Source: Alphaproteobacteria bacterium
GTDB lineage: Bacteria; Pseudomonadota; Alphaproteobacteria; Elsterales; Elsteraceae
Reading direction: 5' to 3'
Length of the DNA stretch: 45,980 nt
Assembly (NCBI GenBank): GCA_004292755.1
Contig: RDXE01000052.1
Location: forward strand, 1 to 45,980
Shown: positions 11,969-14,406 of the stretch, one piece after another
Layout: the number at the start of each line of letters is the position of its first letter
Position numbering within the stretch: the stretch's first letter is position 1
Position numbers and translations under genes: made by a program
Notes under the pieces: generated by a model
What the model was told of the DNA's origin: nothing
What the model saw: only the letters and a program-made list of their open reading frames with translations
Database searches by the model: none

Positions 11969-11975
11969 AGGGGTG

Positions 11976-12007
11976 TGCCACCGGCACGTGTGCCTGTGCC
12001 GGTGGCA
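11976..12007. terminator. Perfect 12-bp inverted repeat after the phytase-like gene
   Basis: TGCCACCGGCAC (11976-11987) and GTGCCGGTGGCA (11996-12007) pair perfectly around an eight-base loop, eight bases after the stop codon. No T-tract follows, so it is a probable intrinsic or Rho-assisted terminator. It argues against the GTG at 11975 being a real start for the next gene. Confidence 0.55.
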
Positions 12008-12130
12008 AACCGAGCATTAGTTCCCGTACTAGGACAAATTGCTACAGAGCCACAGCCATTGGCATGGTTTCTCTGGCAGAAGCGCTGCGATACCATGCAC
12101 GAGACGCGATTTTCGCGATTGGGGAGAGAC

Positions 12131-14398
12131 ATGCTGCGACGGGATCCGCCGGTGGTGGTGCAAGTCTTTGCTCTGTTGCTATGGATGGTGCTAGCGCCGA
12201 CTCTAGTGGCAGCCCAGCCCGCCTCCATTCCACCCCCACCGATTGCTGACGCGACAGAGACCGAGCGCTGGATTTGGGCCACCCTGCGTGCTGGCAATCA
12301 CGCAGACTTGAATTTGCGGTGCGGCCAAACCCTAGATCCAAAGAGCACGACTGATCCTCGCTGGGAGCACCCATGCCGCCAAGTCAGTGGGCACTTTCTA
12401 GAAGCTTTGCTGACCAGTGACGGTTGGCGTGCCGCTCCGGCCCATCGCGGCGTAAACATCTCTGGGGCTCGGGTGTTGGAGAATGTCAATCTGCGTGGCG
12501 CCGTTATTGGGATGGCAATTTACATGAAAGCAAGTCGATTAGATGCTTGGATATCATTTGAGGACACCCGCTTTGAGAGGGGCTTTTTTTTCGATTCGGT
12601 TGTTTTCAATGGAGGCCTTTTTGCAGAGCGTATGACTGTGAGCGGCAGTTCCTTTCTTCGTAATGGGACTGTGATTCGACGTGAGGCGTTGTCGATTGGC
12701 GGGACGCAAATCTCTGGGGATCTTGATCTGTCGGGCATCGTAATCGAAACCGGGCTTAAGGCAGAGCGTATCAGTGTCGGTCGTTCCGTCTTTCTTGGCA
12801 ACGGTGCGAAGATCGCTGGGTCAGTTTCATTTACTTTATCCCGTTTTGGTGGTGACTTGGATTTGAGCGGTGGTAGATTTGAGAGAGGGTTGAAATTAGA
12901 TAAGATGGATATCGCTGGTAGCGTATTTGTGAGAGATAAAGCTACAGTGTCTGGCGGTCCCATGGATTTGAATTCTACTAAAGTCGACCAGCAGGTTGTT
13001 TTAAACACTTCAACTTTTGCGGAAGGCGTCAATGCAGATTCTATACGAGTTGGCGGATCCTTTTTTGCTAGAGATGGTGTGATTGTAAAAAACCATGGGC
13101 TAGAAATAACTGGAGCAAAGATAAAAGGAGGGGTATTTCTTTCAGATTCCGAATTCAGTGATGGTATTAGTGCGCACGGTACTGTGATCGACGGCAGTTT
13201 TGTTCTTCATAATGGGAGTGTTGGTGGGCGGGCATTGAACTTATGGGCAGCAGATATAGGTGGAATAATCAACATATCCTATAGCAAAATTGATCTTGGC
13301 ATTGAGGCTAGGCAAATCCGCGTTGGTCGGGATTTCTTCGGCAACAATCTCAAACAGGTAGGCGGCGTCGGTCTTCAGTTGGACAGTGCGACTCTTGCGG
13401 GTAGTTTGGTTCTGCAAAACGCCAGACTGGAAGGAGGGCTTTCAGCCAGACGTGCATCTATAAATGGTGATATCAACGCACTAAACATTGTCGTTACTAC
13501 CGGAAATGTTTTGTTGGAGGCTGCAAAAATTGGTGGATTCGTGTCGTTCATTGGTGCGTCTATCAAGACACCCATTCGTTTGGGATCAGTTGATATAGCG
13601 AAATTCCTGGACATCAGTGGTGCGCAGGAAATCGCAGAATTAGATTTGTCCCATAGCACTATTCATCAGGAGTTGCGGCTTGGCCAGCCAGGAAGTTCTG
13701 CCCCAACGTGGACCAGGGATGCAATTCTATCGCTCCGCAACGCGAAGGTTGGTGCTTTGATCGATTCACCAGGACCGAACCCTATCCTTCCGCAAGCATG
13801 GCCGCAGACCGTTGTTCTCTCTGGGTTGACCTATGAGCGGCTGAGTGCGTCAGACGCTGATCGCGCACAGGACATGGGGTTTCGCCCCGTGACGTATTTC
13901 ATCAATCTTCTAGCGCGCGACACTTGGTTTAGTCCGCAGCCCTATCACCAGTTGGCCTCGGTCTTCCTAGGGGCTGGCGATAGTGAGCGGGCGGAGGCGA
14001 TCCTTTACGCCGCGAAGGAGCGAGAGCGACACAAAGAAACAGACTTTTGGGGCCGGACCGGCCTCTGGTTGCTGAAAGTAACCGTCGGCTATGGCATTGG
14101 CTCAGGCCCTTGGCTAATCCTGGTTTGGGTCCTCGTTGTGACTTTAGTGGGGATGGTAGTGTTGGCCCGCTCGCCAGGCGGGCGAGGCAAGTCGTGGTCC
14201 TGGCGGTTTGGCGCAAGCCTCGACCACCTTCTCCCCATCGTGGAATTGAGCCCGGAGTTCACGAAGTTTTTTGATGACCCTGGGCGTGAGCGATTGGCCG
14301 GCTGGCAGATGGGCTATTTCGCCGTTCACGCCATTCTGGGCTATGTGCTGGCAGCGGTCTTGGCCGCTGCCGTCGCGGGTCTTACCCACTTCCAGTAG
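12131..14398 (+). CDS. Membrane-anchored repeat protein (beta-helix/pentapeptide-like)
   Basis: 755 residues from the ATG at 12131, which follows GGGGAG and begins a signal peptide (hydrophobic residues 8-28, VAA-QP). Residues 165-483 are seven successive repeats of 45 or 46 residues, each two turns of about 23, with a pattern like I-x-V-x-G-S-x-F-x-R-x-G and then L-x-I-x-G-A-x-I-x-G-x-V-x-L-S. This suggests a right-handed beta-helix. Residues 596-632 contain ARDTWFSPQPYHQLASVF and a short helical repeat. Two membrane segments follow, at about 655-680 and 727-750. Actinobacterial proteins annotated as membrane-associated oxidoreductases or pentapeptide-repeat proteins share, as I recall, the ARDxxxSPQPYxQLA element; no enzymatic activity is evident. 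Base composition falls sharply in the repeat region, suggesting transfer. The function is unknown. Confidence 0.8.
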   Translation: MLRRDPPVVVQVFALLLWMVLAPTLVAAQPASIPPPPIADATETERWIWATLRAGNHADLNLRCGQTLDPKSTTDPRWEHPCRQVSGHFLEALLTSDGWRAAPAHRGVNISGARVLENVNLRGAVIGMAIYMKASRLDAWISFEDTRFERGFFFDSVVFNGGLFAERMTVSGSSFLRNGTVIRREALSIGGTQISGDLDLSGIVIETGLKAERISVGRSVFLGNGAKIAGSVSFTLSRFGGDLDLSGGRFERGLKLDKMDIAGSVFVRDKATVSGGPMDLNSTKVDQQVVLNTSTFAEGVNADSIRVGGSFFARDGVIVKNHGLEITGAKIKGGVFLSDSEFSDGISAHGTVIDGSFVLHNGSVGGRALNLWAADIGGIINISYSKIDLGIEARQIRVGRDFFGNNLKQVGGVGLQLDSATLAGSLVLQNARLEGGLSARRASINGDINALNIVVTTGNVLLEAAKIGGFVSFIGASIKTPIRLGSVDIAKFLDISGAQEIAELDLSHSTIHQELRLGQPGSSAPTWTRDAILSLRNAKVGALIDSPGPNPILPQAWPQTVVLSGLTYERLSASDADRAQDMGFRPVTYFINLLARDTWFSPQPYHQLASVFLGAGDSERAEAILYAAKERERHKETDFWGRTGLWLLKVTVGYGIGSGPWLILVWVLVVTLVGMVVLARSPGGRGKSWSWRFGASLDHLLPIVELSPEFTKFFDDPGRERLAGWQMGYFAVHAILGYVLAAVLAAAVAGLTHFQ

Positions 14399-14406
14399 CA
14401 GCCACA

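Follow-up and report, generated by a model that had tools for sequence, protein, structure and literature searches.

An AT-rich gene of an alphaproteobacterium encodes an exported pentapeptide-repeat protein with a C-terminal membrane module resembling ion-channel pores in its predicted fold

Pentapeptide-repeat proteins are abundant, although few of them have known functions, and to our knowledge a C-terminal hairpin followed by a TM-helix-TM module (TM, transmembrane helix) has no counterpart among the solved members. Two envelope-associated proteins come closest to the case described here: YjbI of Caulobacter, a secreted pentapeptide protein of 183 residues at the outer membrane (PMC12864828), and HglK of Anabaena, a pentapeptide protein of the cytoplasmic membrane with a role in heterocyst envelope formation (PMC8145042). 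The gene under study lies in a stretch of alphaproteobacterial DNA of 45,980 nucleotides (the window), and the features of the gene and its insertion site are collected in Table 1. Like YjbI, the window protein combines a signal peptide with an exported four-sided beta-helix and has cysteines located at the helix ends; unlike YjbI, it has 755 residues, a predicted inner-membrane location and a two-TM module at its C-terminus. With HglK it shares the presence of a pentapeptide region and membrane helices in one protein; however, HglK carries four TM helices at the N-terminal side and AXLXX repeats at the C-terminal side, which is the reverse of the order seen here.

The window protein is a pentapeptide-repeat protein by both profile and fold. 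It matched Pfam PF13576 (Pentapeptide_3) at 5.4e-13 (49.4 bits, cut-off 27), with no other Pfam entry above its cut-off, and 12 of 16 family members matched the same profile at E<=0.1. Additionally, the modelled beta-helix gave a VIA match to HetL (3du1; Z 16.3, 3.1 A over 221 residues), consistent with the right-handed four-sided beta-helix that it has in common with the PF13576 superfamily. It departs from the strict 20-residue A(D/N)LXX pentad coils, however, in that its repeat is degenerate, with coils of about 22-23 residues and four short strands each (strand spacing about 22-24 residues, read by eye from the model), and it differs from the superfamily at large in its long helical N-cap, its C-terminal hairpin and its TM-helix-TM module. 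A literature search retrieved no paper describing this architecture; the superfamily is already known, while the architecture is new relative to the literature found. The first-pass annotation, made from the sequence alone, had named the gene the best candidate in the window for an undescribed function, which holds insofar as profile searches returned no characterised enzyme, but the PF13576 assignment means that the protein is not wholly undescribed.

The anatomy of the window protein is well supported, and the exported beta-helix-like protein with two C-terminal membrane segments that had been described from the sequence is borne out by the signal peptide, the Pfam match, the structural models and hydropathy. 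The full-length AlphaFold2 model, built with 14 aligned relatives, reached a mean pLDDT of 85.4, while the C-terminal part modelled alone reached 87.2. The hydrophobic stretch of the signal peptide spans residues 8-26, and cleavage would occur after VAA. Only two cysteines are present, C64 and C82, both in the N-cap, where they may pair as a disulfide. The ARDTWFSPQPYHQLASVF element noted earlier is present and occurs family-wide (F.PQPY.QLA), and residues S696, D698, L700, L701, P702 and L706 are invariant in alignment A4. Beta-helix columns conserved in at least 70% of the sequences of clade A, the branch of the family that holds the window gene, hold, with few exceptions, L, G, V, F, I, A or S and show no conserved D/K/R/H cluster, and the conserved polar and aromatic motifs are found in the C-terminal part.

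Table 1. Features of the window gene and of its insertion site (window coordinates)
Feature	Coordinates	Strand	Remarks
ORF, 755 aa, exported membrane-anchored beta-helix protein	12131..14398	+	only copy in its genome at this similarity level
Likely ribosome-binding site, GGGGAGAG	just 5' of the ATG of ORF 12131..14398	+	
Signal peptide, MLRR..VVVQVFALLLWMVLAPTLVAA	12131..12214	+	hydropathy up to 2.4 over 19 residues; model helix 9-26
Helical N-cap, residues about 41-106	12251..12448	+	AlphaFold2 model
Beta-helix, residues 107-556	12449..13798	+	PF13576 5e-13; model pLDDT mostly >90
Helical hairpin, residues 583-652	13877..14086	+	carries family motif F.PQPY.QLA.VL...G....A..IL.A
TM1, residues 658-680	14102..14170	+	hydropathy, models
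Inter-TM helix, residues 689-700, then P702; SLDHLLPIVEL	14195..14230	+	position matches pore helix of P-loop channels
TM2, residues 725-748	14303..14374	+	hydropathy, models
DNA absent from same-genus genome G008, approximate extent	12012..14406	.	G008:C7 flanking-gene comparison
16-bp inverted repeat, directly after stop codon of upstream gene	11972..12011	.	insert lies downstream

The two C-terminal membrane segments had been taken as an anchor; both are indeed present, but together with the hairpin they form a module that resembles P-loop pores. When the model of residues 658-755 was compared with known structures, P-loop channels accounted for 50 of the 50 VIA matches listed, including NaK, KirBac, Kir2.2, TRPV and SthK (Z about 8.5-10). 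Z was 10 for NaK, 9.8 for KirBac3.1 (2wli, 3.1 A over 87 residues) and 9.7 for 3vou (2.0 A over 79 residues). The predicted TM1-short helix-TM2 geometry would thereby agree with that of the NaK and KirBac3.1 pores to 2.0-3.1 A over 79-88 residues. Structural scores in the middle range can also arise from short TM hairpins, and Foldseek returned a NaK chain at a probability of 0.84 with all E-values above 0.2 (best 0.29). Furthermore, hhalign against K+ channel pores (PF07885, Ion_trans_2) gave a probability of 5% or less in every comparison, no PDB sequence matched, and the inter-TM helix is not followed by a selectivity-filter motif of the TVGYG type, the segment there being SLDHLLPIVEL. Given the lack of profile homology and of a selectivity filter, the likeness is therefore one of predicted fold only, and it differs from P-loop pores in that the inter-TM loop of clade A would, by prediction, point to the cytoplasm. 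Just before TM1 (14081-14095, residues 651-655) the protein does contain TVGYG, the same sequence as the core of the K+ channel filter, its G.G being kept in nearly all family members. It was considered as a selectivity filter and rejected as a look-alike, as no TM helix precedes it, and it probably represents a helix break.

In base composition the gene is the outlier of the window, as had been reported. GC content per 1 kb falls to a minimum of 0.462 at 12501-13500, whereas the background is 0.646 (sd 0.028) with a minimum of 0.568 outside the gene, and a recount of positions 13081-13140 returned exactly the 22 G/C of 60 originally given. The gene as a whole has 52.8% GC and a third-position GC (GC3) of 0.53, compared with 0.69-0.81 in neighbouring genes. 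The view that the whole gene is AT-rich applies to the beta-helix block but not to the two ends, which are close to background: GC3 of the block is 0.43, its 4-fold sites are 41% GC versus 63% and 70% in the ends, and the best two GC3 change points fall at residues 133 and 565 (log-likelihood gain 23; maximum of 9.8 in 60 shuffles). From these breaks and the 4-fold site contrast it follows that the AT-rich block is the beta-helix, with ends nearer the local norm. As the beta-helix part has 47.6% GC where local codon usage would yield 60.1%, amino acid content does not explain the bias, which is one of codon choice. No tandem repeat was detected at the DNA level in the gene that would indicate recent expansion of the repeats.

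Presence of the gene across the lineage is patchy rather than uniform: it occurs in one of nine genomes of the bacterial family and is missing from the other eight, and an occupied and an empty site were found within the genus. The empty-site comparison involves one other same-genus genome (G008, contig C7), in which the same two flanking genes, the upstream esterase-like gene with 72% and the downstream gene with 67% identity, are separated by approximately 37 bp between stop codons, compared with 2438 bp here. Insertion in the lineage of the window is the simplest reading; loss in G008 is possible, but gain is favoured because of the foreign composition of the gene. Neither an integrase nor a repeat was found to flank the insert. 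The inverted repeat next to it is probably the terminator of the upstream gene, and G008 has a hairpin-forming sequence at the same place. On balance, the gene is best read as horizontally acquired single-gene cargo.

Relatives were detected within the class in 10 of 384 other genomes and, by profile search, in 30 of 397 sampled genomes of the phylum (about 7%), as well as in Nitrospirota, Planctomycetota, Thermodesulfobacteriota and Ignavibacteriota, and some reside on plasmids of rhizobia and Streptomyces. In a tree built from the C-terminal domain, a 100/99 branch divides the family into clades A and B. Clade A, to which the window gene belongs, spreads over Pseudomonadota, Nitrospirota, Planctomycetota, Ignavibacteriota and others and has a signal peptide in 15 of 18 scorable members; an apparent signal peptide in L047 was a beta-strand and the N-termini of L058 and L054 are broken, so that these labels were corrected or left out. 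In the case of L054 (8237-9898), the N-terminal part is encoded in another frame just upstream, through a frameshift or an assembly error. Clade B comprises Streptomyces proteins annotated as oxidoreductases and numerous genes from a single bacterial family within the same class (code f23), none with a signal peptide. A second, distant member in the genome of the window (G000:C59:43673-46207, equivalent to L102:3674-6208; 844 aa) also belongs to clade B and has no signal peptide. This signal-peptide-free branch of normal composition was missing from the earlier picture of the family.

The first-pass annotation had further connected the ARDTWFSPQPYHQLASVF element with actinobacterial proteins bearing oxidoreductase names, and Streptomyces plasmid relatives (e.g. 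NZ_CP109253, NZ_CP108855) are indeed annotated as 'membrane-associated oxidoreductase' or 'oxidoreductase', a name without visible basis. These proteins are homologous to the window protein over the beta-helix, the PQPY hairpin and both TM helices, but they lack the signal peptide and show the opposite charge pattern, more beta-helix cysteines and near-normal composition. That the window protein is itself an oxidoreductase is scarcely credible, the annotation of these relatives being the one point in its favour: no oxidoreductase family scored above the Pfam or NCBIfam cut-offs, and the two cysteines are confined to members with a signal peptide and missing from the others, because of which they do not constitute a family-wide active site.

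Composition and neighbourhood were also assessed across the family. Each of the 19 clade A members compared has a lower GC content than its flanks (mean -8.5 points, p=4e-6), whereas clade B is not AT-rich (-1.4 points, p=0.29). An AT-rich beta-helix as a general family trait was rejected, since GC3 of the helix minus that of the C-terminal part averages -0.03 in 27 members. Integrase, resolvase or transposase genes lie near several clade A members, and this, with the AT-richness and the scatter over phyla, gives clade A the appearance of mobile cargo. A phage origin was rejected, as the family is absent from the phages and viral contigs searched and has no match in PHROGs. A conserved genomic partner was sought without success: in an all-against-all comparison of 1254 neighbouring ORFs, no gene was common to more than three loci, and the SGNH-protease and DUF900 neighbours were each found at two loci. 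The former are SGNH-hydrolase-like proteins encoded upstream of rhizobial members on the same strand (L044:4632-7646 and L045:4391-6325), one fused to trypsin-like and endonuclease/exonuclease/phosphatase domains and the other to a caspase domain, with 33% identity over 346 residues. The DUF900 alpha/beta hydrolase genes lie just upstream of two other members. Just downstream of a further member, one ORF (L057:6650-8527) combines an inverse-autotransporter beta-domain with an alpha/beta hydrolase domain C-terminal to it. A caspase partner in the genome of the window was rejected, the only candidate being a lone metacaspase on another contig.

A block swap was observed in the beta-helix of clade B orthologs from two species of one genus, G258 and G700 (L043:4828-6555 versus L107:4718-6445), in which DNA identity is 55-78% in the beta-helix but about 90-100% in both flanks and the tandem neighbour gene. 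This one swap shows that the beta-helix is exchangeable as a module, and it suggests, without proving it, a possible route by which the window gene acquired its AT-rich core. A hypervariable beta-helix, as in recognition systems, was rejected despite this swap: a set of 22 clade B orthologs shows no hypervariability of the beta-helix (mean difference 0.018), which evolves at a rate similar to that of the membrane part, so that constant diversification is not general.

Members with and without a signal peptide differ in features that bear on membrane orientation. The net charge before TM1 plus that of the tail, minus that of the inter-TM loop, has a median of 1 in the 15 signal-peptide members and of 10 in the 23 other members (p=3e-7). 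The N-cap cysteine pair occurs in 14 of 15 signal-peptide members versus none of three clade A members without the peptide (L050, L052 and L054; p=0.005), and lone beta-helix cysteines amount to 0.0046 per residue in signal-peptide members versus 0.021 (p=1e-5), being common in clade B. As the members are related, these statistics reduce on the tree, where the signal-peptide state needs three changes, to three independent contrasts, in which charge moves in the same direction in 2.5 on average and never in the opposite one, too few for significance. Signal peptide, charge and cysteines, which change in concert, suggest that the two groups may sit in the membrane in opposite orientations; since the charge bias of signal-peptide members is near zero and not clearly reversed, the signal peptide and the cysteines are the main grounds for assigning an orientation to them. 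In the corresponding evolutionary scenario, which we consider rather doubtful, a homologous TM1/pore-like helix/TM2 module fused to a beta-helix was inverted in the membrane during evolution. It is with similar reserve that we picture the clade B beta-helix in the cytosol with the loop outside, and the clade A beta-helix exported with the loop inside.

As regards function, the reading that we prefer, albeit tentatively, is that the beta-helix serves as a periplasmic sensor or scaffold and is coupled to a pore-like module in the membrane. The window protein would reside in the inner membrane with its beta-helix exported to the periplasm, where this part would be non-catalytic and offer an envelope ligand or a partner protein a surface to bind to; a binding surface is the simplest assignment because the beta-helix is long, smooth and without conserved polar clusters. 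Binding might then be relayed via the helical PQPY hairpin to the TM1-helix-TM2 module, which would probably oligomerise and alter membrane permeability or signal across the membrane. That conservation is best in the hairpin and the TM module points to such a coupling of binding with a membrane event. Somewhat less probable, though possible, is a purely structural periplasmic scaffold, whose beta-helix arranges components of the envelope while its TM helices serve as a plain anchor with neither pore nor signalling. Known envelope pentapeptide proteins do such jobs (HglK, PMC8145042; YjbI, PMC12864828), a smooth beta-helix without an active site would suit it, and the similar rates of beta-helix and membrane part in the clade B ortholog set are those expected of a structural protein. 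However, conservation is highest in the TM region (51% identity to a Mesorhizobium relative versus 32% for the beta-helix), the invariant S.D.LLP between the TM helices exceeds the needs of an anchor, and genes for housekeeping envelope architecture do not usually show such a patchy, mobile distribution.

The mobile cargo pattern would fit an effector of a conflict system (defence or competition), whose beta-helix senses infection or the attack of a rival and whose TM module depolarises the membrane, although we regard this as unlikely. The location of family genes downstream of the trypsin-like and caspase fusions on two rhizobial plasmids is in keeping with it, protease modules of that kind and pentapeptide repeats being found in described conflict systems (PMC7159879, PMC8195603), as are the DUF900 neighbours at two other loci and the one clear module swap in clade B. 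Against these stand the failure to match the window protein in PADLOC-DB, the models of which cover described systems only, the lack of relatives in phages or viral contigs, the missing partner both near the window gene and recurrently across loci, and the low variability of the beta-helix in the 22 clade B sequences. A membrane-tethered carbohydrate-active beta-helix enzyme of the lyase or epimerase type is highly improbable: the fold matches with the top Z values are inulin lyases, an alginate epimerase and tailspikes (Z 17-19.5), but at 6-12% identity and an rmsd near 4 A they reflect the shared right-handed beta-helix, no D, K, R or H cluster is conserved there, and the sequence matches pentapeptide repeats rather than lyase families.

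The family combines the pentapeptide fold with a conserved membrane module that looks like the pore of an ion channel, and the oxidoreductase name should be dropped for its members, being a mislabel in Streptomyces. An envelope-sensing or conflict function not yet described may reside in the mobile clade A. Should the module conduct, it would represent a P-loop-like channel used in both orientations, and if orientation does differ between the clades, the family would offer a natural, testable system for the flipping of membrane proteins in evolution.
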